In this document: one piece after another, positions 33,861-60,836 of the stretch
Layout of the letters: every line of letters begins with the position of its first letter
Numbering within the stretch: position 1 is the first letter of the stretch
NCBI RefSeq assembly: GCF_003344625.1
Contig: NZ_QPKJ02000007.1
Coordinates: 186,001-250,000 of the forward strand
From: Solirubrobacter deserti
GTDB taxonomy: Bacteria; Actinomycetota; Thermoleophilia; Solirubrobacterales; Solirubrobacteraceae
Direction: 5' to 3'
DNA length: 64,000 nt
Position numbers and translations under genes: made by a program
Notes under the pieces: model-generated
Database searches by the model: none
The model's input: only the letters and a program-made list of their open reading frames with translations
What the model was told of the DNA's origin: nothing

Positions 33861-33945
33861 GCGCCTTCTTCTCTCCCCGGAGCTCATCCTCGACGTTAGG
33901 GGGTGGCTTCGCGCGCCCGCTTGCGGGACAGTTGCCGGAACTATC

Positions 33946-42811: not shown

Positions 42812-42939
42812 TGCGCCCAGGCTATGTCTGCAGGCCTCCGGCGTCTTCGGGGAAACGACGAGGACCGCACCTAGCGGAACGGCTAGGTTGGGGTCCAGGG
42901 GCTGGTCCAACGGCGGATACGAGAAGGCGGGAGCCGGTC

Positions 42940-43177: not shown

Positions 43178-43966
43178 GTGGACCTCGCACGTTTCCTTTC
43201 CGTGGCGTGGCGCTTCAAGGTGGTGCTCGTCATTGGGTTCATGCTCGCGACGTTTGTCGCGGTCATGTCCTCGGCGCGGATCAGTGTCGAGGGCGGCAAG
43301 CCCACGTTGACCTACCGGGAGCAGGAAGTCTGGGCCAGCGCTTCGACGCTATTGATCACCCAGGCCGGCTTCCCGTGGGGCCGCGCGATCCTCGACGACA
43401 TGATCCAGGTCGACTCCGGCACCGACGACCCGATTCTGATCCCGAAGTACGGAGATCCGGGCCGCTACTCCGGCCTCGCGGGGCTTTACGCAGAACTCGC
43501 CAAGAGCGACGAGGTGCAGGCGGAGGTCATGAAGAACTCCAAGCCCGGTGAATCGGTCGTCCCGATGGTCGTCCAGCCGCCTGGGACCAACTCCACGCTG
43601 CCGCTGATCACGATGAAGGGCCTCGGCCCGACGCCCGAGTCCGCGATGGATGTGGCCATGCGCTCGAGCAAGGCGTTCCGGGAGTTCCTGGATCGTCAGC
43701 AAGCTGCAAGCAACATCCCGAAGGACAAGCGCGTGGAGGTGGTCGTCACGCAGAAGGCCACCAATCCCGAGCTGTTCGAGAAGCGTTCCATGGTGCGTCC
43801 GATCTTCCTCTTCCTGCTGATCAACATCGGCTTCCTCGCGCTCGCGTTCGCGCTCGAGAACCTGCGCCCGCGGTCCAAGCGCAAGGGCCCTCCGGCGCCG
43901 CGTCAGGGCGACGCGCCGACGGAGGAACACTGGGCGGAGCGGGAGCGTCACCAGGTCGCAGCCTGA
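43178..43966 (+). CDS. Wzz-like polysaccharide co-polymerase / chain-length protein
   Basis: A 262-residue membrane protein. TM1 lies near residues 13-32 ('FKVVLVIGFMLATFVAVM') and TM2 near 208-226 ('PIFLFLLINIGFLALAFAL'). The extracytoplasmic middle has a beta/alpha composition and 'TQKATNPELFEKRSMVRP' just before TM2, the usual Pro-containing region of Wzz/CapA-type proteins. It ends in a basic cytoplasmic tail with no tyrosine kinase domain. The predicted role is to set polymer length together with the next gene. The GTG start is four bases after the HTH gene's stop. Confidence 0.78.
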   Translation: MDLARFLSVAWRFKVVLVIGFMLATFVAVMSSARISVEGGKPTLTYREQEVWASASTLLITQAGFPWGRAILDDMIQVDSGTDDPILIPKYGDPGRYSGLAGLYAELAKSDEVQAEVMKNSKPGESVVPMVVQPPGTNSTLPLITMKGLGPTPESAMDVAMRSSKAFREFLDRQQAASNIPKDKRVEVVVTQKATNPELFEKRSMVRPIFLFLLINIGFLALAFALENLRPRSKRKGPPAPRQGDAPTEEHWAERERHQVAA

Positions 43967-43969
43967 GTC

Positions 43970-45607
43970 ATGGCTGCACTAGCTCAGTCCGGTCCGTCGG
44001 AGCCGACGGCCGTTGAGCGACGGGCCGGCATCGCGCTGGTCATGGTCGCGTTGGCGTGCCTGGTCGGCGGGGTCGGTGGGGCCGGCAATATGAAGACTGC
44101 GATCCTGGGCGGCGCCGTGGGCACGGTGCTGCTCGCGGGCGCCCTTGTGGTTAGGCGCCCGTTCCTGCCCTGGGACCGGGTGCTCATGGTCCTGGTGCTG
44201 GTGATCCTGTTCATCCCGCTGCGCCGGTACAAGTTCCCGGGCGACGCGGGAATCTCGCTCGAGCCCTATCGGCTTCTGGTCGCGCTCATCGTCGCGGGCT
44301 GGCTCGGGGCACTGCTGGTCGATTCGCGCGTGCGCGTCCGTAAGAGTGGCATCGACGGCACGCTCGCGTGCATCTTGCTCGTGGTCGTCGGCTCGGTGCT
44401 GACCAACCCTGAGCGGGCCGGCCCGCTGCAGTCTGAGGTGCTGAAAGCGGTCACGTTCCTGGCGAGCTTCATGGTCGTCTTCTACGTCGTCGTCAGCGTC
44501 GTCCGCACGCAGTCCGCGATCGATCTGCTCGCGAAGACGCTGGTGATGGGCGGAGCGATCATCGGCTTGTTGGCGATTGTCGAGTCGCGCACTGGGTTCT
44601 CACCGTTCGCGTACGTGGACAAGGTGATCCCGATCCTGGTCGGTGATCCAAGCTTCGAGTCGGGCCTGGGCCGCGGCAGCGCGACGCGTACCGTAGGCCC
44701 GGCGGAGCATCCGATCGCTCTGAGCGCGGTCTTGGTGATGCTGATTCCGTTGGGCGTCTACGTCACCCGCGTCAGCAGCTCGAAGTGGTACTTCGCCGTG
44801 GCCGCAATCACGCTCGGAGTGCTTTCGACGGTCTCGCGCACCGGGATCATGATGCTGCTCACGCTGTTGATCGTCTTCTTCTGGCTGCGCACGGCCGAGA
44901 TGAAGCGGATGTGGCCGCTGCTGCTGCCGGTGATCCTCGTGACACAGATCGCGATGCCCGGAACCTTGGGCTCCTTGAAGGAGTCGTTTTTCCCTGAAGG
45001 CGGGCTCGTGGGCCAACAGAGCGCCCTCGCAGGCGACTGCGCCTCCTCGGGGCGCGTCGCAGACATCGGTCCGACACTGGCTGAGGTCGCCAAGAAGCCG
45101 TTCCTGGGCTACGGGTACGGTACACGCGTCATCTCCGGACCGTCCTCGAACGCGTGCATCTTGGACAACCAATGGCTTGGCACCACATACGAGGTGGGCT
45201 ACTTCGGCCTCGTCGCGTGGCTGCTGCTGTTCACCCGCGTGGCGAGGCGGTTCGGACGCGGGTCCAAGTACGACGACTCACCCGCGGGATGGCTGCAGGT
45301 CGCAGTGACGGCATCGGTGACTGCCTACGCGGTGGGGTCGGTGACGTTCGACGCGCTCGGCTTTTCTCAGGTGACGTTCGTGCTGTTCCTGATCCTCGGC
45401 CTCGCGGCCGCGGCCCGGATGAACGCCCGCGAAGCCGACGCCGCAGCTCAGTCGACGCCCATCCGCGGTCGCGGGGACAGCGCGCGTCGGACGGCGCGCA
45501 GGTTGCCGCGCCTAGCCTCGCCGCCGCCGCGCGTGACCAGCGCGTGGGATAGTCCGCCCAGTACCACTCCGAGCCGCTCCAAGAAAGCGACCTGGGCGGA
45601 TCGATGA
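43970..45607 (+). CDS. O-antigen ligase/polymerase family (Wzy/WaaL-like) membrane protein
   Basis: A 545-residue protein with about 11-12 hydrophobic helices. The O-antigen ligase-type core is 'ALSAVLVMLIPLGVYVTRVS', then 'LGVLSTVSRTGIMMLLTLLI', a large external loop with 'LAEVAKKPFLGYGYGTRVIS', and 'NQWLGTTYEVGYFGLVAWLL'. The Arg in 'VSRTG' and the 'GYGYG' loop fit Wzy_C proteins. It should polymerise or ligate lipid-linked repeats outside the membrane. The C-terminal 60 residues are Ser/Arg/Pro-rich, and their DNA overlaps the convergent GT2 gene by 160 bases. The ATG is three bases after the Wzz-like gene. Confidence 0.85.
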   Translation: MAALAQSGPSEPTAVERRAGIALVMVALACLVGGVGGAGNMKTAILGGAVGTVLLAGALVVRRPFLPWDRVLMVLVLVILFIPLRRYKFPGDAGISLEPYRLLVALIVAGWLGALLVDSRVRVRKSGIDGTLACILLVVVGSVLTNPERAGPLQSEVLKAVTFLASFMVVFYVVVSVVRTQSAIDLLAKTLVMGGAIIGLLAIVESRTGFSPFAYVDKVIPILVGDPSFESGLGRGSATRTVGPAEHPIALSAVLVMLIPLGVYVTRVSSSKWYFAVAAITLGVLSTVSRTGIMMLLTLLIVFFWLRTAEMKRMWPLLLPVILVTQIAMPGTLGSLKESFFPEGGLVGQQSALAGDCASSGRVADIGPTLAEVAKKPFLGYGYGTRVISGPSSNACILDNQWLGTTYEVGYFGLVAWLLLFTRVARRFGRGSKYDDSPAGWLQVAVTASVTAYAVGSVTFDALGFSQVTFVLFLILGLAAAARMNAREADAAAQSTPIRGRGDSARRTARRLPRLASPPPRVTSAWDSPPSTTPSRSKKATWADR

Positions 45608-46344
45608 AGTTGCGCGTACCGGACGCGGCTGGCCGCCAGCACGGGAAGTAGCGCGGCGCGGGGCGCGGACATCCCGCCCTGGTGCACGCACACCGCCGCC
45701 GGCTCGAATCGTATGTCGAGCCCGGCATCGCGCAGCCGGCGACACAGATCCATGTCCTCGCAGTAGAGGAAGAACCCGTCGTCGAGTCCGCCCAGCCGTT
45801 CATAGGCGGACCGGCGGACGAGCAGGCAGGCGCCGGACGCCCATTCGGGCGAGGCGGGTGACGCGTATGCCGCCGGATCGCGGACGAGCTCATCTGTCCA
45901 CGGCGCCAAGGGGAAGAAACGATGCAGAAACAACGCCTGCGCGTACGTGGAGCGCAGCCGTGGGAAGCGGCGTTGTGACCAGTCGAGCGTGCCGTCAGGC
46001 TCGATGATGCGCGGTGCGACAGCGCCGATCCGCGCGTCGCCTTCGGCGACGGCGACCATGCGCGTCAGCGACTCACCGTCGATCGTCGCATCAGGGTTCA
46101 GGAGCAGCACGTACGGCGCGCTCCCGGCACGCGCGCCGGCGTTGCAGCCGAAGCCGAACCCGCGGTTCACCTCCAGCGCGATGGTCGTCACCGGCAGGTC
46201 GGCCACGGTCTGGAGACTGTCATCGCTCGAGTTGCTGTCGACCACGTAGACGTGGACGCCATCGATCCTCGTCAACGGTTCCACGCAGGCGCGCAGCTCG
46301 TCCGCGCTGTTGTACGAGACCACGACGACGTCTATCGGCGGCAT
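45448..46344 (-). CDS. Glycosyltransferase family 2 protein (rhamnosyltransferase-like)
   Basis: A 298-residue GT-A enzyme. 'IDVVVVSYNSADELRACVEP' binds the nucleotide, the D-x-D equivalent is in 'APYVLLLNPDATIDGESL', and the acceptor side has 'ASGACLLVRRSAYERLGGLD' and 'FFLYCEDMDLCRRLRDAGL'. This set is typical of WbbL/RfbF-like rhamnosyl or related transferases. It starts at ATG 46344 with TACGGT seven bases upstream. Its last 160 bases are antisense to the polymerase gene; both C-termini read as coding, so the overlap seems real. Confidence 0.9.
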   Translation of the reverse strand: MPPIDVVVVSYNSADELRACVEPLTRIDGVHVYVVDSNSSDDSLQTVADLPVTTIALEVNRGFGFGCNAGARAGSAPYVLLLNPDATIDGESLTRMVAVAEGDARIGAVAPRIIEPDGTLDWSQRRFPRLRSTYAQALFLHRFFPLAPWTDELVRDPAAYASPASPEWASGACLLVRRSAYERLGGLDDGFFLYCEDMDLCRRLRDAGLDIRFEPAAVCVHQGGMSAPRAALLPVLAASRVRYAQLHRSAQVAFLERLGVVLGGLSHALVTRGGGEARRGNLRAVRRALSPRPRMGVD

Positions 46345-46750: not shown

Positions 46751-49700
46751 ATGTGCGAACCTCTCCGCATTGGTCGTCGCCAGCTGTGGCTGGCTTTGGG
46801 ATTCGCAGTTCTCGTCAGTTCGCTTGCCTTGACGGTCGGCCAAGCGAACGCCGCGGCGCGCACTGCGCAAGTGGCCTCTTCTCAACCCTGGGGCGTCGAG
46901 GTGGACGCGTCCACGCTGGCATCGCTTACGCGCGCGGAGGGGCGAGAGTTCCGTAAGCGCGGCTTGACTCTTGTCGCCGCTTCGTCGCTCACCGCGGCGG
47001 ACGAGCGCAAGCTCGCTGTTGCGGCCTCCAAGTGGGGCGTGCGCGGGATCGCGCGCTCTGATGCCCGCACGATGACGTTCGTGGACGCGAGCAACCTTGC
47101 CGCGTTCGAGCGCCTCGCGAATGGGCCGACCCGCGTGGCCGGCGTGCTTGAGCTCAAGCGCGCGACTTCGGCTGCCTCGTGGCGAAAGGCGGTCGCCGTC
47201 GCTCGCCAGAGCCCGGTGCTGGACCTCGTGATCAAGCCGACCGGAGTGGGCGCCGAGGCCACGCTCGCGCGCCATCTCAGCGCGGTCACCGCGTCAAGCG
47301 CCAGCACCGACCGGACGCCGCCGCGCCTGACGGGCGCTGCGCGTGTCACCTCCACGGCGCTCAACTCCGTCTCGGTGAAGTGGTCGCGCGCGACCGACAA
47401 CACCAAGGTCACGGGCTACGGGCTCTACGTCGACGGCCGCTACGTCGGCAGCACGCAGAGCACGTCGACCGTGTTCAAGAACCTCAGCTGCGCCACGCAT
47501 CAGCTCGCGATCGACGCCATGGACGCCGCGGGAAATCGGTCGGCGCAGGCGCTGGTGACGGCCGCGCCGACCGGTTGCGCATCGACGCTTGCTCCCGAGG
47601 CCGACGCGTCCTCCGGAGGGGTGAGCACGTTGGCCGCCGACACGCAACGTCCGTCCGTTCCGCAGGGCATGCGTTGGACCGGGACGACTCCCAACACGAT
47701 CGGCCTCGCCTGGAACGCGTCCTCGGACAACACGGGCGTCGCCGGCTACCGCTTGTTCCGCAACGGCGTGGCGGTCGGGACGACGTCGTCGCTGTCGTAC
47801 ACCTTCTCCGGCTTGTCCTGCGCCACGCGGTACACGATCGCGCTCGAGGCCTACGACGCCGCTGGCAACGTGTCCAACCGGGCCGAGGCCACGGGCACGA
47901 CGAGCACAAGCGCATGCCCGACGCCGACACCGACGCCCACCGTCGCGCCGGACACGCGGGCGCCGAGCGTCCCACAGGGGATGGCGTGGAACGGCGTGAC
48001 CCAGACGACGGTCGGCTTGCGTTGGAACGCGTCGACTGATGATCGCGGCGTGGCGGGCTATCGCCTGTATCGCAACGGCGTCGCGGTAGGGACGACGACG
48101 TCGCTGTCTTACACGTTCTCAGGATTGAGTTGCGCGACGTCATACACGTTCGCGCTCGAGGCCTATGACGCGGCCGGGAATGCGTCCAATCGCGCCGAGG
48201 CTGCGGGCACCACGCTCACGAGCGCATGCCCGACCCCGACCCCGACCGCTACGGCCACCGCCACGCCCACGGTCACGGCCACGCCCACCGCGACGGCTGC
48301 GCCGACGGTCACGGCTACGCCGACCGTGACGGCTACGCCGACCGTGACGGCTACGCCGACCGTGACGGCCACGCCGACCGTGACGGCCACGCCGACGGTC
48401 TCGCCGCCGCCGGTCGGTGGGAACAGCGCGAACCTGTGGGTCGATCCCAACGGCGGCTCGTGCACGCGACAGGCCTCGCTCGCCGCCTACAACGACGGCA
48501 CGGCGTGCGGTTCGTTCGACGCAGCCAACGACGCGTGCCGCGACGGCGACATCGTGCTCATCAAGGGCGGGTCTTACGGCGCACAGACTCTCAGCGGCGG
48601 CAACTCACGCTCCGCGAACTGCACGATGCAGGTCATCACGGGCGAGACGGCCCGCGTTTCTGGGAACCTGGGGTTCTCCGGCGCATCGCGGCTCGTCCTC
48701 GACGGTGGCGGTGCGCGCAATGGTGTCGGCGCCCGGTTGGTGACCACGACGATTTCGGGGAGTGGCTCTGAGCGCAATCAGTACGGTGCCTACGCTTCGG
48801 GTGGTTCGAAGTTTGTGACGTTGCAGGGTGCTGATTTCGGTGGTTGGCAGATTGACAACAGCAACAATGTGACGTATCGCAACAATGACATCGGTCCGTG
48901 TGACACGATCGATAGCGATGGTGGCGGTGGGAATTGCGATAACGGGTCGATTGAGTACTGCGAGGCGGGGTTTGCGCATTGCACGCAGTACAACGAGGGG
49001 CATGTGGTCGAGGGCAATTTGGTGCACGATTTCGGTGCTGATGACTCGTTTTTTGGTGGCGGGGGGTCGAATGATCCGCATTGGGAGTGCATGTATGTCT
49101 CGTATCCGCGGAATCTGACGATTCGTGGGAACACGTTCGTCAATTGCGCGAACGGCGGGAACATCTTCTTTACGTATTCCAACGCGGGCGGCGGCTTTAC
49201 GGCTGATTACGGGTATACGGGGTTGACGATCGAGAACAACGTGTTCACCAAGACGTGCAACAACTCGTCGGCGCCGTGTGGTGGGCGGCTGGATTTCGCG
49301 TTCGGTATTTCCGGCCACTGCAACATCTACGGCGGAACGGACCTGAGCAATGTCGTTATCCGGAACAACTCGTTCTTGGGCGGGTCGGGCTTTGACATCA
49401 GCGGCGGCTGCACGCAGGGCAACCCGGGCGTGACCCTGAGCGGCAACGTCCGCCTCGGGCGCAACTACGCCAACGCCTGCGGCGCCAATGGCGCCTGGCC
49501 GGCACAGCCCAGCCAGCTGCGCGAGACGTTCTACGGCGGCGCCGTGACGTGCGGCTCCAACCCGCAGACGCTCGGGTCCGCCGAGGCGGCGATCGACCCG
49601 CACGTGATGTCGAACTCCAACACTGCGCCTGATCCTCACCTGAAGGGCTCGACGGGCCCGTTCGACGCATTCGTGGCCACGAGCTGCCCGGCCACCGACA

Positions 49701-49756
49701 TCGACGGACAGCCGCGGCCGGCGACCGGCTGCGACGCCGGCGCCGACGAGCGCTAG
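46751..49756 (+). CDS. Secreted FN3/parallel beta-helix protein, paralogue A
   Basis: A 1001-residue exported protein. A signal peptide (1-36) is followed by a shared N-terminal domain (about 45-180, 'WGVEVDASTLASLTRAEGRE', 'RGLTLVAASSL'). Three FN3 domains (about 183-275, 296-390, 400-492) each have a Cys pair ('GLSCATSY' and a closing Cys). A Pro/Thr tandem-repeat linker (493-554) precedes a right-handed beta-helix domain to the end, with 'NLWVDPNGGSC', 'HWECMYVSYPRNLTIRGNTF' and the terminal 'DIDGQPRP' and 'CDAGADER' motifs. Beta-helix proteins of this kind often bind or cleave polysaccharides, but no catalytic set is recognisable. ATG 46751 precedes the signal; GGGAG lies at 46731. Confidence 0.85.
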   Translation: MCEPLRIGRRQLWLALGFAVLVSSLALTVGQANAAARTAQVASSQPWGVEVDASTLASLTRAEGREFRKRGLTLVAASSLTAADERKLAVAASKWGVRGIARSDARTMTFVDASNLAAFERLANGPTRVAGVLELKRATSAASWRKAVAVARQSPVLDLVIKPTGVGAEATLARHLSAVTASSASTDRTPPRLTGAARVTSTALNSVSVKWSRATDNTKVTGYGLYVDGRYVGSTQSTSTVFKNLSCATHQLAIDAMDAAGNRSAQALVTAAPTGCASTLAPEADASSGGVSTLAADTQRPSVPQGMRWTGTTPNTIGLAWNASSDNTGVAGYRLFRNGVAVGTTSSLSYTFSGLSCATRYTIALEAYDAAGNVSNRAEATGTTSTSACPTPTPTPTVAPDTRAPSVPQGMAWNGVTQTTVGLRWNASTDDRGVAGYRLYRNGVAVGTTTSLSYTFSGLSCATSYTFALEAYDAAGNASNRAEAAGTTLTSACPTPTPTATATATPTVTATPTATAAPTVTATPTVTATPTVTATPTVTATPTVTATPTVSPPPVGGNSANLWVDPNGGSCTRQASLAAYNDGTACGSFDAANDACRDGDIVLIKGGSYGAQTLSGGNSRSANCTMQVITGETARVSGNLGFSGASRLVLDGGGARNGVGARLVTTTISGSGSERNQYGAYASGGSKFVTLQGADFGGWQIDNSNNVTYRNNDIGPCDTIDSDGGGGNCDNGSIEYCEAGFAHCTQYNEGHVVEGNLVHDFGADDSFFGGGGSNDPHWECMYVSYPRNLTIRGNTFVNCANGGNIFFTYSNAGGGFTADYGYTGLTIENNVFTKTCNNSSAPCGGRLDFAFGISGHCNIYGGTDLSNVVIRNNSFLGGSGFDISGGCTQGNPGVTLSGNVRLGRNYANACGANGAWPAQPSQLRETFYGGAVTCGSNPQTLGSAEAAIDPHVMSNSNTAPDPHLKGSTGPFDAFVATSCPATDIDGQPRPATGCDAGADER
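48293..48400 (+). repeat. 18-base tandem repeat encoding a Pro/Thr linker
   Basis: Six tandem copies of ACGGCTACGCCGACCGTG, some with one to three changes, encode TATPTV repeats between the FN3 and beta-helix domains. The in-frame period lets copy number change linker length without frameshift. Confidence 0.85.
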
Positions 49757-49841
49757 CGAGCACACGTCTGGCGGCCCACAACGGTGGGTCGCCAGACGGA
49801 TTTGCTGGACCTCTGGCTGGGGTCCGGCGGCCGGGCGGCGC

Positions 49842-49847
49842 TACGGT
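49842..49847 (+). promoter_or_regulatory. -10 element for paralogue B
   Basis: TACGGT is six bases before ATG 49854 and favours that start over the in-frame ATG at 49893. Paralogue B therefore probably has its own near-leaderless transcript. Confidence 0.45.
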
Positions 49848-49853
49848 TTCGTC

Positions 49854-52253
49854 ATGGCCGCGCCGGCGTCCGACGACCGCGACCGCCACGCGATGAAACC
49901 TCGCCGGAGCCGTCTCGGGGTCCTCGGCCGGATCGTTCTGGCCGCGGCCTGCTTGATGTTCCTCGGAACCCGCGTCGCCGCCACCGCGCCGGTCACTCCG
50001 GCCTCGCTTCCAACGGCGCCGAAGGCAATGCCACAGCTCTGGGGCGTTGAGGTGGATGGGGAGACGTTGCAGGCGCTCGACGGCAAGCGCGCAGCAGGCA
50101 TGCGGGCGGTCGGGATGACCCTGATCGTCCCGCCCGGTCGCTTGACGGCGCAGGAACAAGTACGGCTCGTCAAGCGCGCCCGACGATGGCGCCTGCCGGT
50201 GATCGCGCCGGTCAGTGCCGAAGCCAGCGCCGTCTGCACGGCAGACAAGGCCACTGCTCCCGGCCTGCGCTGTGGAGTGCGCGCCACGTCGGTTAGCAAC
50301 GCCGGGATATTGGCCGAGCGCGGTGCGGTTGATCTCATCCTCGTGCACGCGGGCAGCACCGCGGCGTTCCGCCGGTTGCGTGGGCGTGACGGCGTCCGCG
50401 TCGCCGGAGTCGTCGACTTGCGCTCGACCGGCTACAGCGCCCACCGCTGGCGCGCTGCGGTGCGGACCGCCCAGCAGAGCTCCAACCTTGACCTGGTGGT
50501 CCGGCCCGTGGGCAATCACCGCGGCGCCGCACTGGATCGGTTCACGCGCGCATTGACGGCGAGCCAACGTGGCGCTGACCGTCGCGCGCCGTCCGCGCCG
50601 ACCCGAGTCTCGATCGCGCGGGCAGATCGCCGCTCCGCCGACGTGCGCTGGACGCGCTCAAGCGACGACCGGCGGGTCGTGCGCTACGGCCTGTACCGGG
50701 ACGGCGCATACATACGCAGCGTGAGCACGGCCGCCACGACGCTCACCGGCCTGCGGTGCGCGCCGCACCTGCTGGAGGTCGATGCCGTCGACGCGGTTGG
50801 GAACCGGTCGCCGAAGACGTCCGTGCGAGTCGCCGCCGAGGGATGTGCGGCGCCGGCGACGGCCGCCGCGGACCCGGGTGCTACGACCGCGGCGAACCTC
50901 TGGGTCGACGCCAGCGGCGGCTCGTGCGCGCGGCGGGCGGCGCCCGCACCATACGATGACGCAGCCGCATGTGGCTCGCTCGACGCCGCGAACGACGTGT
51001 GCCAGGCGGGCGACCTGGTGCTCATCAAGGGAGGGACCTACCCGGAGCAGCACGTGACCGGCGACAACGGGCGCGCCGCGGACTGCAAGCTGTGGGTCGT
51101 GATCGGTGAGGCCATGGTGCTCAACGGCGCGCTGATGTTCGAGAGCGCCGCGCGTGTGCATCTCGGCGGTGGTGGAGCCCGCAACGGAGTGGGCGCGCGG
51201 CTCGTCACGTCGACCATCCCGAACAGCGGTTCGCCTCGCAACCAGTACCCGCTCGAGGTGATCGGAGGCGGAAACGCCGGTGGGCAGTCCTCGTCGGTCA
51301 CGGTGCAGGGCACCGACGTCGGGGGGTGGAAGATCGAGAACTCGACCAACGTCACCATCCGCGACAACGACATCGGCCCGTGCGATGCGGTCGACGAAGA
51401 CGCCGGCGGCAACGACTGCGACAACGGCTCGATCGAGTACTGCGAGCCGGGGCTCGCGCTCGGCGCCGACCGCGCCTGCACGGGTTACAACGAGGGACAC
51501 GTGGTCGAGGGCAACCTGATCCACGACTTCGGAACCGACGACTCGCTATACACCGGCGGCGGCTCCAACGATCCGCACTGGGAGTGCATGTACGTCTCCT
51601 ACCCGAGGAACCTGACCATCCGCGGCAACACGTTCGTCAACTGCGCCAACGGCGGGAACATCTTCTTCACGTACGCCAACGGCGGCGGGACGTTCGAGGC
51701 CGACTACGGCTACACGAACGTGGTGATCGAGAACAACGTGTTCACGACGACGTGCGACAGCTCATCGCCGCCGTGTGGCGGCCGCGCGGACTTCGCCTTC
51801 GGCATCAGCGGTCACTGCAACCTCTACGGCGGCGTTGACCTGACCGACGTCGTGATCCGCCACAACACGTTCCTGGGCGGGGCCGGGTTCGACAGCAGCG
51901 GCGGATGCACCCAGGGCAATCCGGGAGTCACGCTCTCCGGCAATGTCCGACTGGGGAACAGCGCGCAGTCTTCGTGCGGAGCCGACGGCGCATGGGAGCT
52001 CCCGCCGACGTCGGTGAACGAGGTGTTCTACGGGGGGGCGGTCACGTGCGCTCGCGACGCTCGCACGCTTGGCGTGGCCGCGACGGCGCTCGACCCGCTG
52101 GTCGCCAGCAACTCCGCGACAGCACCCGACGCGCATCTCAAGGGTCCGCGCGGGCCGCTGGACGGCTTCGTCGCCGCCGAGTGCCCGGAGCGGGACATCG
52201 ACGGTCAGCCCCGGCCGGCGACGGGCTGCGACGCCGGCGCGGACGAGCGCTGA
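49854..52253 (+). CDS. Secreted FN3/parallel beta-helix protein, paralogue B
   Basis: A 799-residue relative of the preceding gene product. A basic start and hydrophobic segment (about 22-43, 'GRIVLAAACLMFLGTRVAA') act as signal or anchor. The full-length N-terminal domain (about 60-235) includes 'LWGVEVDGETLQALDGKR', 'GMTLIVPPGRLT' and a Cys-bearing part ('VCTADKATAPGLRCGV') that paralogue A lacks. There is one FN3 domain (about 243-335) and no Pro/Thr linker. The beta-helix domain (about 343-799) is very close to A, with a 39-residue stretch around 'HWECMY' identical. The same terminal 'CDAGADER' is present. It ends four bases before the convergent FkbM gene. Confidence 0.85.
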   Translation: MAAPASDDRDRHAMKPRRSRLGVLGRIVLAAACLMFLGTRVAATAPVTPASLPTAPKAMPQLWGVEVDGETLQALDGKRAAGMRAVGMTLIVPPGRLTAQEQVRLVKRARRWRLPVIAPVSAEASAVCTADKATAPGLRCGVRATSVSNAGILAERGAVDLILVHAGSTAAFRRLRGRDGVRVAGVVDLRSTGYSAHRWRAAVRTAQQSSNLDLVVRPVGNHRGAALDRFTRALTASQRGADRRAPSAPTRVSIARADRRSADVRWTRSSDDRRVVRYGLYRDGAYIRSVSTAATTLTGLRCAPHLLEVDAVDAVGNRSPKTSVRVAAEGCAAPATAAADPGATTAANLWVDASGGSCARRAAPAPYDDAAACGSLDAANDVCQAGDLVLIKGGTYPEQHVTGDNGRAADCKLWVVIGEAMVLNGALMFESAARVHLGGGGARNGVGARLVTSTIPNSGSPRNQYPLEVIGGGNAGGQSSSVTVQGTDVGGWKIENSTNVTIRDNDIGPCDAVDEDAGGNDCDNGSIEYCEPGLALGADRACTGYNEGHVVEGNLIHDFGTDDSLYTGGGSNDPHWECMYVSYPRNLTIRGNTFVNCANGGNIFFTYANGGGTFEADYGYTNVVIENNVFTTTCDSSSPPCGGRADFAFGISGHCNLYGGVDLTDVVIRHNTFLGGAGFDSSGGCTQGNPGVTLSGNVRLGNSAQSSCGADGAWELPPTSVNEVFYGGAVTCARDARTLGVAATALDPLVASNSATAPDAHLKGPRGPLDGFVAAECPERDIDGQPRPATGCDAGADER

Positions 52254-52257
52254 GCGC

Positions 52258-53073
52258 TCAGACGCGCGCGCCGATGCGCACCAGCGCCATGTCGTATCCA
52301 AGTGGCGTGCGCTCGATCGACAGCGCCTCGGGCTGAGCGCCGTGGCGCTCGAGCCGCTCGAGCAGCGAATCGGCCGTGAACGGGTGATGGCACTCGACCG
52401 ACACGACGCCGACGCGGTGGATCCATCCGCCGCAGTGGTCGAACAGCTCTTCTTCCGCGCCCTCGATGTCGACCTTCAGCAGATCGACGCGGTCGGCCTC
52501 GAGCGTCTCGAGCACGTGCTCCATCGTCACCACGTCCGTCGTGCCGTCGCTGTCGTCGGACATGCGGAAGCCGTCCTCGCGGGCGCCCACCATCACGACG
52601 CGTCGCGGTGTGGCGCCGATGCACGCGCCGACTACGTGGGCGGCGGAGCCGATCGGCTCGAGATTGCGGCGCAGCACGGACAGGTTGCCGTCCTCAGGCT
52701 CCACGGCTGCGATCCGCGCGCCGGGGAAACGCCCGAGCAGCCAGCGTGCCGCGAGACCCGTGTTGGCACCCAGGTCGACGATCGTGCGCACGGGCTCACC
52801 CGCCGCGGCGGCGAGTGGCTCGTAGGAGCCGCCTTCGATCAACTCGCCGAGCACGACGACGTCGGACGTGTGGCTGCGCAGGCGGACGCGGCCCAGGCTT
52901 CGCAGGTTGACGTCCACCGCGATCGGCCGCCGGCAGACGACCGGACCGAGCTTGCTCTGGCTCAGGCGGACCCGCAGCACGCGCCAGAAGTCGCGCGGCG
53001 TGCGCGCCTCGCGTCCGTAGGTGAGCAGCGTCGAAGCGTGCTGCCCGACCTTGTGATCAGCGAGCGGGGACAA
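52258..53073 (-). CDS. FkbM-family methyltransferase
   Basis: A 271-residue SAM-dependent methyltransferase. The SAM motif I is 'IVDLGANTGLAARWLLGRFP', motif II 'IAAVEPEDGNLSVLRRNL', and the FkbM block 'VDLLKVDIEGAEEELFDH' is clear. In polysaccharide loci such enzymes O-methylate sugars, often capping or decorating residues. The TTG start at 53073 lies inside the last 17 bases of the GT4 gene, implying coupling; no better start is visible. Confidence 0.88.
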   Translation of the reverse strand: MSPLADHKVGQHASTLLTYGREARTPRDFWRVLRVRLSQSKLGPVVCRRPIAVDVNLRSLGRVRLRSHTSDVVVLGELIEGGSYEPLAAAAGEPVRTIVDLGANTGLAARWLLGRFPGARIAAVEPEDGNLSVLRRNLEPIGSAAHVVGACIGATPRRVVMVGAREDGFRMSDDSDGTTDVVTMEHVLETLEADRVDLLKVDIEGAEEELFDHCGGWIHRVGVVSVECHHPFTADSLLERLERHGAQPEALSIERTPLGYDMALVRIGARV

Positions 53074-54253
53074 GAGCGACCTCCGAGTAGATATCAGCGA
53101 GACGCCGTCCGGCCGCGCTCCAGGTGATGTCGGCGGCGTGCGCCAGGCCCTGCTCGCGCAGCGCGCGCAGCAGCCCGCGGTCGGCGTTCACCGCTGTGAT
53201 GTGCGCGGCGAGCGCGTCGACGTCGCGCACGGGATGCACGAGCGCGTTGACCTCGTGATGGCAGACGCCGCTGGCGGCGTCGGACACGAGCGGCACACAG
53301 CCGCTGCCGATCGCCTCGTTGCAAACCAGCGCGGAGCCTTCCTCGATGCTCGGGAGCACGAGCACGTCGTGCAAGCGCATCAGCTCGGGGATGTCGCTGC
53401 GGTGGCCGAGCACCTGGACGCTGGGGTGTGCGAGCTGGTCCTTCAGCTTCTCCCCGTAGGCGGGGAGCAGATCGCCGGCGACGGTGAAGGTGCCGGAACT
53501 CGACGCGGGGGACCGTAGCCACGCCTCGAGCGCGAAGTGCAGTCCCTTGCGGACCGCAGCCACACCGACGTACAGCATCCGCAGCGGTTGTCCGGGAGCA
53601 GGCGGCTCGCCGGGAGTGAAGACCGCGGGGTCGTAACCGTAGAGGTGCCGCACGAGCCGGTCGGGCGAATAGCCCGCGCGCTCGAACGTCCCGGCGACGA
53701 AGTCCGACGGGCACAGCAGGTGGTCGGCGAGGTCGTACTCGGCTTCCTCGATCCGCAGCACCGTCTCGTTGAACGCGTGCTCGTGATCGGCGGGAAGCGG
53801 CACGCCGAGACGCTCGCACTCGGCGCGGACGGTCTCGTACGCGTACCGCGTGTGGGTATTGGGGCGCTCGAGCACGGTCGGGATCCCGAGGCGCTTGGCG
53901 ACCTCGAGCGTCCGCAGCGCGCCGAGCGGCCAGACGTGGACGACGTCGGGACGCTGCCGGGAGCGGGCGAGGCGGCGGGCCACGATGTGATCGTGCGCGC
54001 GCAGCGCCCGAAGCTCCCCGATCACGCGATAGGGCACTCGGACCGAGCCGCGGGCGAGCGTCGGGCGGACGGTGACGCCGTCGGGCACGGTTCGGGCGAG
54101 CGAGGCAGGCATCACCGTGACGTCGGCGCCGGCGTTCGCCGCGCCCGCGACCTCGTAGAAGGCCGTGTCGCAGATCCGGCCCGCGCCGAGGCGATGCGGG
54201 AAGCTGTGCAGCACGCGCACGCCGCGGCCGGCAGTGGCGGAAGCTTGCGTCAT
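53057..54253 (-). CDS. Glycosyltransferase family 4 protein
   Basis: A 398-residue GT-B enzyme. 'VRVLHSFPHRLGAGRICDTA' opens it, then 'PDVVHVWPLGALRTLEVAKR' and 'VLERPNTHTRYAYE'. The donor domain has 'LRMLYVGVAAVRKGLHFALE', 'VQVLGHRSDIPELMRLHD' and the E-x7-E motif in 'IEEGSALVCNEAIGSGCVPL'. ATG 54253 is four bases after the upstream GT2 stop; an ATG at 54280 would overlap that gene. It is followed by the coupled FkbM gene, so both probably act on the same glycan. Confidence 0.9.
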   Translation of the reverse strand: MTQASATAGRGVRVLHSFPHRLGAGRICDTAFYEVAGAANAGADVTVMPASLARTVPDGVTVRPTLARGSVRVPYRVIGELRALRAHDHIVARRLARSRQRPDVVHVWPLGALRTLEVAKRLGIPTVLERPNTHTRYAYETVRAECERLGVPLPADHEHAFNETVLRIEEAEYDLADHLLCPSDFVAGTFERAGYSPDRLVRHLYGYDPAVFTPGEPPAPGQPLRMLYVGVAAVRKGLHFALEAWLRSPASSSGTFTVAGDLLPAYGEKLKDQLAHPSVQVLGHRSDIPELMRLHDVLVLPSIEEGSALVCNEAIGSGCVPLVSDAASGVCHHEVNALVHPVRDVDALAAHITAVNADRGLLRALREQGLAHAADITWSAAGRRLADIYSEVALVPAR

Positions 54254-54257
54254 GGCA

Positions 54258-55232
54258 CTAGGCGGTGTCGACGAGTTCATCGGCCACCCTCACCGGGCCA
54301 CTCGTGCCCCGCATCCGGCGTCCCTCGAGCCAGCCGGCAAGCTGGGCCGCGCATCGCAGGTACGGGACGACGATGTACAGGATCGGCAGCGACTGCAATG
54401 TGAGCACCGGCGACGGGTGGACGTCGTTGTCGCGCATCCACCGCCGGTCGGGGCCGATGGAGCGGCCGAAGCGACGCCGCGAGCGGTACGTCTGCACCAC
54501 GGGCACCCACTCGCGCAGCTTGATGCCGTCGGCCACCGTTCCGGCGCGGCCGGCGTGGACCGCGTAGCCGCGGTTGTACTTCCACAGAGCGCGCAGCAAC
54601 GGCTTGCCCTCGTCACGCGTCGGATGCCAGACGACGGCGTCGCCGGCATAGGTCAGACGGGCGCCGGCCGCGACGGCACGCTCGGAGAACTCGTAGTCGC
54701 CGTACTCCTTGATGGAGCCGTCGAGGCCGCCGAGGCGGTCGAACGTGGCCCGCAGGCAGAAGAGGTTGGCGGTTTCGGCGAGGCCCAGCCGCACGGAATG
54801 CTCGTGGTCCTTCGAGCCGTCCATGTCGATCAAGGTCCAGGCGGTGATGCGCTCCGGAAGCGTGAAGCGGAAGCGTCCGGCGGCAAGGTCGGTGCCCTCG
54901 AGCGCTGCGAGACCGCGCTCCAGCCAGTCCGGCTCGGGCCGGCAGTCAGCGTCGCAGAACGCGAGCACCTCGCCGCGCGAGGCCGCGACGGCCATGTTGC
55001 GGGTGGCGTAGGAGTTGCGGGGCGGGCCGAACGCGACCCGCACATGGCCGTCCGGCGTCTCGATGCCGGTCGTGCCACCGTCTGTAGAGCCGTCGTCGCC
55101 GATCACGATCTCGAAGTCCGCGCGGTTCAAGGTCTGGTGCTCCAAGCACGCGAGGAGCTCGGCGATGTCCTTCGCGCCGTTGCGCACCGGCGTGATGACG
55201 CTTACCCGCGGCCGTCGTTCGTCCACATTCAT
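54258..55232 (-). CDS. Glycosyltransferase family 2 protein
   Basis: A 324-residue GT-A enzyme. 'PRVSVITPVRNGAKDIAELL', 'FEIVIGDDGSTDGGTTG' and the metal-binding D-x-D in 'VLAFCDADCRPEPDWLERGL' are present. 'FCLRATFDRLGGLDGSIKEY' and 'DYEFSERAVAAGARLTYAG' form the acceptor side. A hydrophobic region near the C-terminus ('VLTLQSLPILYIVVPYL') may associate with the membrane. ATG 55232 is chosen because TATGTT lies nine bases upstream and family similarity starts just after it; the frame is open further but without similarity. Confidence 0.9.
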   Translation of the reverse strand: MNVDERRPRVSVITPVRNGAKDIAELLACLEHQTLNRADFEIVIGDDGSTDGGTTGIETPDGHVRVAFGPPRNSYATRNMAVAASRGEVLAFCDADCRPEPDWLERGLAALEGTDLAAGRFRFTLPERITAWTLIDMDGSKDHEHSVRLGLAETANLFCLRATFDRLGGLDGSIKEYGDYEFSERAVAAGARLTYAGDAVVWHPTRDEGKPLLRALWKYNRGYAVHAGRAGTVADGIKLREWVPVVQTYRSRRRFGRSIGPDRRWMRDNDVHPSPVLTLQSLPILYIVVPYLRCAAQLAGWLEGRRMRGTSGPVRVADELVDTA

Positions 55233-55241
55233 CCTGTTCGG

Positions 55242-55247
55242 AACATA
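55242..55247 (-). promoter_or_regulatory. -10 element for the GT2-GT4-FkbM unit
   Basis: TATGTT on the reverse strand is nine bases before ATG 55232. It lies in the 94-base gap after paralogue C. Confidence 0.4.
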
Positions 55248-55326
55248 GTCCTGGACCAGCGGCTCGCCAACGCAATCTCCTCGACGTCCGAACAGTTGTC
55301 TTCGCGACCTCTGCCGGGCGTGGACA

Positions 55327-58300
55327 TCAACGCTCGTCGGCGCCCGCGTCGCAGCGACTACCGGCCGCCGGTCGGGGTTGTCCGTCGATGTCCTTCGCAG
55401 GGCAGCCCGCCACCGCCGGGACATGGTCGTCAGCGACGCTCTGCTGGTCGAGGTGGAAGTCGAGTTCGTCGTCGGTACTGGCGTCTGCGTACGGGAAGGC
55501 GTCTGAGCCGATGGTGCTGTCGGTGGCCGCGCACGTGCCGCGGCGGCGGCTGTCGGACCAGACGTTGTAGGCGTACGTCCAGCCGTCGCCCGGATGGCAC
55601 CCGTCCCACATCATCAGATTGCCCACGACGTCGACGTCCTTCCAGGTGCACTCGGGATTGGTGTCGAGTTCGAGCGTGGTGTCGGCGGCGAACGAGTTGA
55701 ACGCCACACGGACGCCGTCGAAGGCGACTTCTGGCCCGTTCTGACACCACGAGAGCGCGACGGCGGAGGCTCTTGTGGGTGTTCCGCCCGTCGGCGTTTC
55801 GGCCCAGGGCGCCGCCAGCCAGTTGTTCTCTATGGTCAGGTCACGATGCCCCATCTCTCCCGCCTGCGGGCCAGAGATCGTGGCGAAGATGTCGAAGATC
55901 GCGCACTGGCGGAACTTCGAGTTGACGATCGAGATGTTGTGGCCGGCGTTGATGTACATGCACTCCCAGTGGCACTCGAAGCCCGCTTCGAAGCATGTCT
56001 CGTCGAAGCGGTAGTCATGGAACGTCGCGCCGTCGATGGTCACGTTGGTCGCGAGATCGAGCTTGGAGTTTCCGCAGGTCTGCGTGATCGGCGCGACGAC
56101 GTGGCAAGGGCCGTAGTCGCCGCCGCGGACCGTCAGATGGTCGACGAGCCACGCGTGCACGCTGCCGGCGTCCATGTCGTCGAGCGTGATGAAGGTCGAG
56201 CCCGGTCCGACGTAGATGCCCACCTGGTTACCGACGCCCGGTTCGGTGGCCTTGACGCTCATCTCCATGCCTCGCACCGCGATGTGGTCCGGGCCGGTCT
56301 CGTCGGAGCCGAACGCGAGCTCGTCGAGCACGACTCGTGCGCCCTTGGCGGGGCGAAAGAGTATGTCGGGCCCGTTCTCGTGGCCTGGCGCCTGCTTGAT
56401 GATCTGCGACCCGTAGCGCCCCGACGCAACCTCGACGACGTCGCCGGGCTTGGAGATGCGGAACGCGCGGTCGAAGCCGGCACACGGGGCGGCGCGCGTG
56501 CACTCGTTCTGGTCCGATCCGGTGGGTGAGACGAACAGCGTGGCCGGCTCCGGCTCGGGCGACGTGCAGTTGCTCGTGGACGCTGAGACGACCGTGGATG
56601 CGGACGTGTTACCGGCCGCGTCGGCGGATACGACGCCGACCTCGTACGTGGTCCCGCATTTGAGCCCGGTCACCGTCGCACTCGTACCGGATGTGCTCGT
56701 GACCCGCACGCCGTTGCGATGGAGCCGGTACTCGGCGACACCGCGGTCGTCCGTGCCGGCGTCCCACACCAGCGTCACGGTCGTTTCCGTGCTGGCGGTC
56801 GCGCGCAGGCTTCGCGGCGGCGTCGGGGGCGAGGTGTCCGGGCAGATCGCGGAGCGCACCGCGAGCGTCGCCTTGACCGAGCCGTTGCCGGCCGCGTCGC
56901 GCGCCTCGACCGCGACCTGGTACGCCGTGTCGCAGGCAGGGACCGGCAGGATCGCCGACGTCCCATCCACCGTGTCGGTGAGCCGGCCGTCGATGTAGAC
57001 CCGGTAGCCGGTGACGCCGACGTCGTCGGTCGACGGGTCCCACGCGATCGACACCAGTTCCGGTGTCGCCTCTATGAGCTTCAGTCCCGCCGGGGACGAG
57101 GGCGGCGTCTTGTCCGAGCACTCTGCCGTCGAGACCGTCACGGTGTTGCGCTGGGACAAGTTCTCGGCGGCGTCCCGCGCGACGATCCCGACCTCGACCG
57201 GCGCGCCGCATTGCAGATTCGACATCTCGATCTCGGTGCCGGTGGTGGCGTCGACCAACGAGCCTCCGCGATACACGTAGTACCCAGTCACGCCAATGTC
57301 GTCGATCGACGGCTCCCAGGCGAGGCGGATCGACGTCTCGCCGACGGACAGCGCCCGTAGCCGGGCCGGGGCGGTGGGCGGCGAGGTGTCAGGGCAGTCG
57401 TCGGTCCCGACCACGATCGTCGCCCGCTGCGAGACGTTGCCGGCCCCGTCGAGCGCCTCGACGCCGAGCGAGTACGACGTCCCGCAGGTAAGCAGCGAAT
57501 ACGTGAAGGTCAGCGCCTGGGTCGTGCCGACGAGCGTGCTGTCCCGGAACACGCGGTACCCCGCGACTCCCACGCTGTCGGTCGAGGCCTCCCACTCGAT
57601 CTGCACGGACGTCTGACTCCGAGTCCCATACCCGAGCTGGCCCGGCGTGGTCGGCGGCTGGGTGTCCGAGGGTGTGGTCTGGACGGTGAAGGTGCGGGTC
57701 GCCGGCGTGGGGTCGGGGTTGCCGGCGGCGTCTACCGCGCGGACCACGAACGTGTAGTCGCCGTCGACGTTCGTCGCGTAGCTGCGCGGGGAGGTGCACG
57801 GGCTGAACGTACCCGCTCCGGCGGGTGTGTCCAGCCGGCACTCGAACGTGGCGCCGGGCACTGTCGCGGTGAAGGTGAACGAGGCGTCCGCGCGGTTCGT
57901 CGGCCCGCTCGGCCCGCTCGTGATCGTCGTCTCGGGGGTTGGCGCGGCCGTCGCGGTGGGCGTCGGCGTGGGCATCCCGGGCGCCGGTGGCCCGGGCAAG
58001 ATGCTGATCGGGCTCGGTGGGGCCGCGATTCCGCACCCGCTCGGCGTCGCGGTCGCGAACGCCTTCGCCGACCGGTTGCCCGCCTTGTCGACGGCGTCGA
58101 CCTCCACGAGGTGCGGCGTGCACGCCAGGCTGGGCAGCTGAACGCCCGGAGACGCCACCGTTGACGTCCGGCGACCGTCGAGGTAGACCGCGTATGCGAC
58201 GGCGTCCTTCACCGCGCTCCACGAGACCGCGAGCCCGCCGCCGCCCGAAGGGACGACGAGTGGCGTTGCGGGCCGGGTCGGCGCCGACCGATCGCCGCGC

Positions 58301-58947
58301 GCGAGAGGCCGCAACTGCTTGAGGTACCGGATCAATGCCGCTTGCGCACCGGAGCCGGTGGGGAGGACGGCGAGATCAAGCCCGTCGGCCGACCGCGCGG
58401 CGTTGATCTCGCGACGCCAGGTCGCGGCGCGATAGCCGCTGCCACGCAGCGGCACCACCGCCATGACACGGCTCGCGCCGGCGTTCAGACCGCTGCCGGT
58501 GGATGCGGAAACCACCACGAGGTCGGCGTCGCCTCCGGCGGCGAGCGCTCGCGCCGCGGCGGGCGAGGCGGCGGCGACCGCGCACCGATGGCCCGGCTCG
58601 GCCAATTTGTGCTGAACGCACGCCTCGGCACCGCCGCCGAGTGGCTGAATCAGCGGCAGCTTCTCGCGCTGCGCCAGGCTCGTGAGCCGGCGCCCGGTCG
58701 CCGCGTCCAGACCGGGCGCGGCCACCAAGGTCATGCCCACGGCGCGCAGCTGCCGCAGGACGGGGCGATCGAGCGCACGCGCCAGGGCGGCGTCCACCTG
58801 CACACCCCACGTCTGCGGCAAGGCGTCAGGCGCCGACGGTGCGGCCTGTGCCGAGGCGGCGAACAAGGCGGACGCCGCGACAAGCGCGACCAGCCACCCG
58901 CCGAGCCGCGCCGGCGTGCTGCCGTGCAGGCACATCCACCCCCTCAT
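55327..58947 (-). CDS. Secreted FN3/parallel beta-helix protein, paralogue C
   Basis: A 1206-residue exported protein with the same plan as A and B but more modules. Signal peptide about 1-36 ('LGGWLVALVAASALFAASAQA'-type core). Shared N-terminal domain about 45-215 ('WGVQVDAALARALDRPVL', 'GMTLVAAPGLDA', Cys pair). FN3 about 220-305, Pro-rich linker, an Ig-like domain about 350-430 ('FECRLDTPAGAGTFSPC'), four more FN3 domains to about 792, and a beta-helix to the end with 'CHWECMYINAGHNISI' and terminal 'DIDGQPRP', 'CDAGADER'. ATG 58947 is supported by TACGGT seven bases upstream. It is more divergent from A and B than they are from each other. Confidence 0.85.
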   Translation of the reverse strand: MRGWMCLHGSTPARLGGWLVALVAASALFAASAQAAPSAPDALPQTWGVQVDAALARALDRPVLRQLRAVGMTLVAAPGLDAATGRRLTSLAQREKLPLIQPLGGGAEACVQHKLAEPGHRCAVAAASPAAARALAAGGDADLVVVSASTGSGLNAGASRVMAVVPLRGSGYRAATWRREINAARSADGLDLAVLPTGSGAQAALIRYLKQLRPLARGDRSAPTRPATPLVVPSGGGGLAVSWSAVKDAVAYAVYLDGRRTSTVASPGVQLPSLACTPHLVEVDAVDKAGNRSAKAFATATPSGCGIAAPPSPISILPGPPAPGMPTPTPTATAAPTPETTITSGPSGPTNRADASFTFTATVPGATFECRLDTPAGAGTFSPCTSPRSYATNVDGDYTFVVRAVDAAGNPDPTPATRTFTVQTTPSDTQPPTTPGQLGYGTRSQTSVQIEWEASTDSVGVAGYRVFRDSTLVGTTQALTFTYSLLTCGTSYSLGVEALDGAGNVSQRATIVVGTDDCPDTSPPTAPARLRALSVGETSIRLAWEPSIDDIGVTGYYVYRGGSLVDATTGTEIEMSNLQCGAPVEVGIVARDAAENLSQRNTVTVSTAECSDKTPPSSPAGLKLIEATPELVSIAWDPSTDDVGVTGYRVYIDGRLTDTVDGTSAILPVPACDTAYQVAVEARDAAGNGSVKATLAVRSAICPDTSPPTPPRSLRATASTETTVTLVWDAGTDDRGVAEYRLHRNGVRVTSTSGTSATVTGLKCGTTYEVGVVSADAAGNTSASTVVSASTSNCTSPEPEPATLFVSPTGSDQNECTRAAPCAGFDRAFRISKPGDVVEVASGRYGSQIIKQAPGHENGPDILFRPAKGARVVLDELAFGSDETGPDHIAVRGMEMSVKATEPGVGNQVGIYVGPGSTFITLDDMDAGSVHAWLVDHLTVRGGDYGPCHVVAPITQTCGNSKLDLATNVTIDGATFHDYRFDETCFEAGFECHWECMYINAGHNISIVNSKFRQCAIFDIFATISGPQAGEMGHRDLTIENNWLAAPWAETPTGGTPTRASAVALSWCQNGPEVAFDGVRVAFNSFAADTTLELDTNPECTWKDVDVVGNLMMWDGCHPGDGWTYAYNVWSDSRRRGTCAATDSTIGSDAFPYADASTDDELDFHLDQQSVADDHVPAVAGCPAKDIDGQPRPAAGSRCDAGADER

Positions 58948-60354: not shown

Positions 60355-60836
60355 CGGTCTCCGAACACCGTGCCGGCGTAGCGTGCGCCGGGGACCGCGT
60401 CAACCAGCTCAGGCCACTGCACGTACACGCGATCGGCGATCGGACGAGCGAGTCGACAACTGAGCGACGGCCGCTCGGCGCGCGCGAGCGTCTCCACGTA
60501 GGCGACCCGCACACCGTGCGCCCGTGCGACCCACGCGAACGGCACCGCCACGGCTGCGCCGGTGGTCACGAGGACCTGCGGGCGTAGCCGCTTGATCAGG
60601 CGCCGCGCCAGCAGCACGTTGCGCACGGCGTTCTTGAGGCTACGCGCAGCGGGTGAGTGCGCATAGAAGAGCCGCTCACCTTCGAGCAACGACTCCACGT
60701 CGCCGCCGCCGTGGCTGCCGACGACCCAGGCGTGGTCGTACTCGCTCCACGCCTGTCGGAGCGACCACAGCTGCAGGAGGTGACCGCCGGCGGTGCAGAC
60801 GAGCAGGACGTCGACGTGCTCGGTGCCGTGGCTCAC
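60351..60836 (-). CDS. ALG14/EpsE-like glycosyltransferase partner subunit
   Basis: A 161-residue protein with the Alg14 signature 'VLLVCTAGGHLLQLWSLRQA', then 'HAWVVGSHGGGDVESLLEG', 'PQVLVTTGAAVAVPFAWVAR' and 'VRVAYVETLARAERPSLSCR'. The acceptor-side half of a split transferase, it recruits the Alg13-like subunit to the membrane-bound lipid-linked sugar. It lacks the long N-terminal TM helix of yeast Alg14, as bacterial forms often do. The GTG start overlaps the asparagine-synthase gene's stop (GTGA). Confidence 0.88.
   Translation of the reverse strand: MSHGTEHVDVLLVCTAGGHLLQLWSLRQAWSEYDHAWVVGSHGGGDVESLLEGERLFYAHSPAARSLKNAVRNVLLARRLIKRLRPQVLVTTGAAVAVPFAWVARAHGVRVAYVETLARAERPSLSCRLARPIADRVYVQWPELVDAVPGARYAGTVFGDR

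Follow-up and report, generated by a model that had tools for sequence, protein, structure and literature searches.

Paralogous genes in an exopolysaccharide locus

Solirubrobacter deserti is a desert soil bacterium. A stretch of 64,000 nucleotides of its genome (assembly GCF_003344625.1, contig NZ_QPKJ02000007.1, positions 186,001 to 250,000; hereafter the window) was found to carry three paralogous genes, A, B and C, encoding putatively secreted proteins that share an N-terminal domain (hereafter N-domain), FN3-like units and a C-terminal beta-helix (Table 1). Translations of the open reading frames agreed with the coordinates and frames given for these genes in the initial annotation. All three products begin with a hydrophobic segment, as judged by eye, and contain the motifs WGV(E/Q)VD, G(L/M)TL(V/I), HWECMY and DIDGQPRP...CDAGADER. 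Pairwise BLASTP comparison of the N-domains gave 75 (A-B), 68 (A-C) and 114 bits (B-C), and the best of 200 shuffles each reached 25, 27 and 32 bits, respectively; their likeness is thus well beyond chance, and the annotation of three paralogues with a common N-domain, signature motifs and an HWECMY-containing beta-helix was confirmed. About 39 residues of the B and C N-domains, including both conserved cysteines, are missing from that of A. The annotated one to five FN3 domains held in part: alignment revealed an FN3-like unit directly after the N-domain in all three proteins, apparently missed by Pfam in each, whereas Pfam recognized fn3 stretches only in A (two) and C (four) and none in B. 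The C-terminal motif resembled the NCBIfam entry 'choice-of-anchor Q' (NF041518) below threshold (18.3 bits for A and 16.8 for C, cut-off 25), B was unlisted for it in the NCBIfam scan, and none of the three could be assigned to it. Matches to the NCBIfam exoglucanase CbhB were discarded, as they fall on FN3 units with scores far under the cut-off. A scan of the window with Rfam gave zero matches.

Table 1. Coordinates of the features discussed. Positions refer to the window unless another region is named.
Feature	Position	Strand	Remarks
Paralogue A	46751-49756	+	1001 aa; signal (by eye), shortened N-domain, FN3-like units, PT-rich linker, beta-helix
N-domain of A	46883-47323	+	
Beta-helix of A	48425-49753	+	
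Tract identical to D	48761-49458	+	698 bp, within A; candidate gene conversion
Paralogue B	49854-52253	+	799 aa; signal (by eye), N-domain, one FN3-like unit, beta-helix
N-domain of B	50034-50591	+	modelled, TIM-barrel-like fold
Beta-helix of B	50889-52250	+	modelled
H-x-E-C signature of B	51576-51587	+	
Paralogue C	55327-58947	-	1206 aa; signal (by eye), N-domain, FN3-like/Big/FN3 units, beta-helix
N-domain of C	58279-58815	-	
Beta-helix of C	55330-56544	-	
Paralogue D	L049:9552-13166 (G000:C409 ~257551-261165)		~7.6 kb beyond the window end; Big and FN3 front, beta-helix
Wzx-type flippase	41324-42910	-	PF13440, PF01943
Wzz-like protein	43178-43966	+	named by position and conservation beside Wzy; no Pfam or NCBIfam match
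Wzy_C/O-antigen ligase-type protein	43970-45607	+	PF04932, 36.1 bits (cut-off 31.7)
GT2 glycosyltransferase	45448-46344	-	divergent from A; comparable divergent pair in G408
FkbM-type methyltransferase	52258-53073	-	PF05050
GT4 glycosyltransferase	53057-54280	-	
GT2 glycosyltransferase	54258-55424	-	
AsnB-type amidotransferase fused to GT2	60833-63646	-	PF00733, PF13537, PF00535; TIGR01536 above cut-off
Long reading frame, uncertain start	33547-38661	+	DUF1349, GH43_C2-like, FN3 and PIG-L deacetylase domains

The surrounding genes form a Wzx/Wzy locus, with a flippase (PF13440), a PF04932 protein and GT2 and GT4 glycosyltransferases; a priming transferase (EPS_sugtrans) scored above its cut-off in L049, the region that also contains the fourth paralogue, D. 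What had been annotated as an undescribed polysaccharide system is therefore of a known type. The locus also codes for a nucleotide-sugar dehydrogenase and for an amidotransferase of the AsnB type, which makes it plausible that its polymer contains a uronate or uronamide. The AsnB-type protein resembles the amidotransferase TIGR03108 of XrtA/PEP-CTERM exopolysaccharide loci, but its score is below that cut-off (461.9 versus 816.9 bits).

A comparable arrangement was observed in G408, a genome from another family of the same class. Its protein (L098:1710-3974) contains an N-domain (E 7e-18) and a beta-helix (1.4e-18) with no FN3 seen, and the gene is divergent from a GT2 gene matching the window GT2 at 45448-46344 (E 6e-85); Wzz (7e-45), Wzy (5e-106) and AsnB (3e-209) all have homologues no more than about 8 kb away. 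Both genome settings in which the N-domain was read, those of S. deserti and G408, are thus Wzz/Wzy exopolysaccharide loci, in agreement with the glycan link initially put forward, and the divergent GT2 pair that they share is the strongest sign that this link may be functional.

The beta-helix

The C-terminal parts of the proteins have the traits of a right-handed parallel beta-helix; the B sequence had no PDB match at E 1. Conservation was assessed on relatives from which those with a domain E above 1e-15 and rows shorter than 200 letters had been dropped, leaving 124 of 136 rows, or 122 once a 90% filter was applied. His575 of B, in the H-x-E-C signature, was present in all 123 rows having a letter there, and Glu/Asp, Cys and Arg residues were near-invariant. 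The conserved Cys and Asn of the beta-helix may be structural. Among alignment columns with a letter in over 60% of the 124 rows, none had a lysine in more than 50% of them.

The top Foldseek matches of the B beta-helix were structures of RbmB from Vibrio cholerae (9ozl, 9ozd), at 11–13% identity and from a low-confidence model. RbmB is likewise encoded as a secreted beta-helix protein inside an exopolysaccharide cluster, secretion being here a by-eye call, although with about 42.7 kDa it is much smaller than A, B and C. PMC11637428, where this mass is given, describes the Vibrio polysaccharide (VPS) biofilm cluster as resembling Wzy/Wzx systems, and RbmB as cleaving VPS by a lyase mechanism beside a gulose with amide-linked glycine at C6. 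Other structural matches (8bwk, 2pyg, 5lw3) share the beta-helix of PL6 alginate lyases and AlgE/AlgG mannuronan C5-epimerases; alginate, however, comes from a synthase-dependent system rather than a Wzx/Wzy locus. AlgG and AlgL are reported in PMC8829089 to act on alginate while it is synthesised. Finally, precomputed database annotation assigns C and many relatives to the Pel9A-like beta-helix family PF22842.4, but no conserved lysine was seen in the alignment; a local search of the S. deserti genome with PF22842.2 gave no match, and local Pfam scans listed none for A, B or C. PMC6796002 gives His, Tyr, Lys or Arg as proposed lyase bases, that of Pel9A being Lys. Judged on sequence, an invariant His and conserved Arg residues would fit a lyase or epimerase and would poorly fit a PL9 enzyme.

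Exchange of front modules and sequence tracts

Fifteen beta-helix frames of the fetched loci, 14 from relatives plus D, were inspected for the N-domain, and none carried it (best E in any frame, 0.92). One frame (L051:173-2599) has its beta-helix behind LamG and FN3 by Pfam; elsewhere, as judged by eye, it follows Big/FN3-like arrays, precedes arrays that are LamG-like or FN3-like, or makes up nearly the whole of a protein of about 380 aa. With the N-domain absent from all 15 frames and other modules or none in its place, the beta-helix is the constant element.

Paralogues A and D are identical over 698 bp, just before which lies a further identical piece of 56 bases; on both flanks identity drops to 52–85% per block of 20 codons. 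Comparisons of A with B and of B with D gave no exact match of 25 bases. The simplest reading that this pattern suggests is recent gene conversion between A and D, although an assembly artefact stays conceivable because a 698-bp repeat exceeds short reads. PT/ATP-rich linker repeats of variable length were also noticed by eye near the beta-helix in A, C and proteins of L049, L050, L051, L053 and L055; slippage and recombination might act on them.

Gene neighbourhoods of beta-helix relatives

Nine marker proteins taken from the window were used to assess linkage to glycan genes in 19 regions of 20 kb round beta-helix matches and in 11 control regions drawn from G113, G145, G013, G115 and the S. 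deserti genome. The beta-helix search of the order scored at most 12 candidates per genome, and the context test took part of the beta-helix matches, leaving out those in G141, G044:C24, G151, G063 and G152:C8 and other weak or short-contig ones. Of the 19 regions, 7 contained Wzz or Wzy, whereas none of the 11 controls did; a single control showed a marker of any kind (GT4, in L089).

The N-domain

No named family had been recognized for the N-domain, and none was found in Pfam, NCBIfam or a sequence search of the PDB (best E 0.29). Across ten members Pfam gave no consistent match; DUF4439, DUF2478, GlnR_1st and SAM_SMF were rejected, as each matches just one of the ten. A search of BFVD returned two matches at E ≤1e-3, both generic. 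The N-domain of B was modelled with confidence (pLDDT 89.4, pTM 0.86) as TIM-barrel-like, which upholds the first half of the annotated 'partial TIM-barrel or Rossmann-like fold'; a Rossmann fold was rejected, since the model aligns with TIM barrels across almost its entire length. Structural matches were unrelated barrels at 6–16% identity, near-ties without a specific relative (Foldseek TM-scores by query length, 0.23–0.57), and for this reason TenI, the best of them, was not adopted as a name. Compared with the usual eight strands of the TIM-barrel superfamily (TenI, thiamine phosphate synthase, pyruvate kinase barrel, ManBK), the model has fewer: DSSP assigned six of at least three residues, plus short ones near residues 57–61.

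Glycoside hydrolase TIM barrels of the clan A type carry a pair of catalytic carboxylates, each at the C-terminal end of a strand. In the N-domain, Glu66 (8 of 10 rows) is the sole acid at such a position, and no acid there is invariant. The N-domain is probably a degenerate glycan- or surface-binding module, a non-catalytic accessory. It has a confident model and would count as a candidate for a new domain family.

Genome searches at a threshold of E 1e-3, which scored 8–22 first-look candidates per genome in the large samples and 150 in the genus run, gave the following lower bounds for genomes with the N-domain: 2 of the 151 sampled from the order, 2 of the 7 in the genus, 2 of the 146 in the family and 3 of the 399 sampled from the class. 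Two of these in each case are S. deserti assemblies, identical where compared and not necessarily independent strains (22,250 bases of the last 24 kb of the window match NZ_JAPCID010000015.1 of S. deserti CPCC 204708 at 100%); the third in the class sample is G408. In a further genome of the genus, G153, a match appeared only in pieces at E 0.2. Protein searches added seven proteins from query C and two more from P0008, but failed to list A or B themselves, an indication of limited sensitivity. With few candidates scored per genome and protein searches that overlook relatives, absence of the N-domain elsewhere is not firm.

These nine proteins (P0004-P0012), on contigs of up to 31.7 kb with sources marked lgn, jgi and ena, are probably from metagenomes. 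All nine have fn3 in precomputed Pfam lists, and the beta-helix could be aligned in seven (P0004-P0009 and P0011). By eye, P0012 stops where the beta-helix would start and P0010 ends in another domain; there, after the N-domain and FN3, a C-terminal part without Pfam match (residues ~510-948) replaces the beta-helix. A leader starting with MWGAA recurs in the diverged P0004, P0005, P0008, P0010 and P0011 and is seemingly more conserved than the start of a signal peptide requires.

Proposed function

The explanation favoured here, with a probability of roughly 0.55, is that A, B, C and D act as lyase- or epimerase-like enzymes on the exopolysaccharide of their own locus, editing it. They would be exported as accessory proteins of the Wzx/Wzy locus, with the beta-helix as the working part, its groove binding the locus's own polymer and cleaving or epimerising it; the residue acted on would be a uronic acid or uronamide, and the reaction beta-elimination or C5-epimerisation. 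The candidate active-site set would comprise the H-x-E-C histidine, which is invariant, together with the conserved Arg residues. Chain length might thereby be remodelled or cells freed from the matrix, as by RbmB on Vibrio polysaccharide. FN3 units and linkers would serve as spacers, and the TIM-like domain would be exchangeable for LamG-like or Big/FN3 modules. More tentatively, the H-x-E-C beta-helices of Solirubrobacter and relatives could make up a new lyase/epimerase family editing its own Wzx/Wzy polymer, a recombining set with one catalytic core behind exchangeable fronts that include a new miniature TIM-like, glycan-reading domain; in this full form the proposal is doubtful.

Several observations weigh against own-polymer editing. 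The beta-helix model of B is of low confidence (pLDDT 58.8, pTM 0.69), its 14 best Foldseek matches have TM-scores by query length of 0.23–0.32, and the match lists also hold hydrolases, phage tailspikes and the adhesin PfbA. The local Pfam scan of A, B and C gave no lyase family at cut-off save RGI_lyase in C, on an FN3 unit. When matches are merged into places (two in G040:C86, about 29 kb apart, counting as one), Wzz or Wzy occurs in 8 of 13 (own, G152:C21, G153:C462, G148:C22, G113 at 4.55 Mb, G044:C8, G145 and G040:C86), a ratio that flatters the link because merged places reach 60 kb and controls 20 kb; it becomes 7 of 12 without the own place, which is circular as the source of the marker queries. 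In the other five (G148:C98, G113 at 3.69 Mb, G040:C131, and G013 and G115, whose matches are weak and partial) neither Wzz nor Wzy turned up in the DNA that was read, so that for the beta-helix the expectation of homologues always sitting in glycan loci fails.

The main competitor, possible but clearly less probable, is a non-catalytic matrix scaffold or adhesin whose beta-helix would attach to the exopolysaccharide and link cells to one another, while FN3, LamG or TIM-like modules provide additional binding. FN3, Big and LamG modules are frequent in surface binding proteins; their abundance here, the presence of PfbA among the structural matches and the several paralogues per locus are in line with it. 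However, the invariant His and the near-invariant Glu/Asp, Cys and Arg across the 124 rows exceed what the fold by itself should require, even though the Cys and Asn may be structural. Polymer editing is favoured over such a role because the His and Arg residues fit a lyase or epimerase.

Ordinary secreted pectate-lyase-like enzymes, degrading plant or other foreign polysaccharides and placed in the locus by chance, are unlikely: the fold, the PF22842 annotation and homologues without Wzz/Wzy nearby (L057, L079, L084-L086) speak for them, but the recurrent co-location with the Wzz/Wzy/AsnB/GT2 set in several genera and G408 speaks against them, as does the lack of a lysine conserved in at least half of the rows at well-occupied columns, Lys being the Pel9A base in PMC6796002. 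Least probable is an active N-domain, a new TIM-barrel glycosidase family beside a merely binding beta-helix, as its confident TIM-like model and the mannanase ManBK and Cwp19 among its matches are outweighed by the lack of any invariant acid, His or Tyr at a strand C-terminal end in the conservation table and DSSP assignment (Asp213 is present in 10 of 10 rows, yet at a strand start, and is missing in G408), by the ~39 residues lost in A and by its absence from the 15 frames.

Secreted beta-helix enzymes in exopolysaccharide loci are already known from RbmB. Among titles and abstract openings of the papers listed, no description was found of A, B or C, of the N-domain, of the tie of the H-x-E-C family to its locus, of the module exchange or of a Solirubrobacter exopolysaccharide; a term search of the main text of the S. 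deserti paper PMC10722151 found no 'polysaccharide', 'biofilm' or 'lyase'. If A to D do edit the Solirubrobacter polymer, the H-x-E-C motif offers a testable active site whose substrate is supplied by the locus, and the question of how matrix enzymes are aimed could be approached through the exchangeable front modules.

Two further large reading frames were noted. The product of the frame at 33547-38661 is possibly another secreted multidomain protein of the same locus. In L054 (9610-18774; G148:C22), a frame of 3054 aa with DUF4082, LamG, Big_5, Kelch and galactose-oxidase-like domains adjoins a beta-helix gene.
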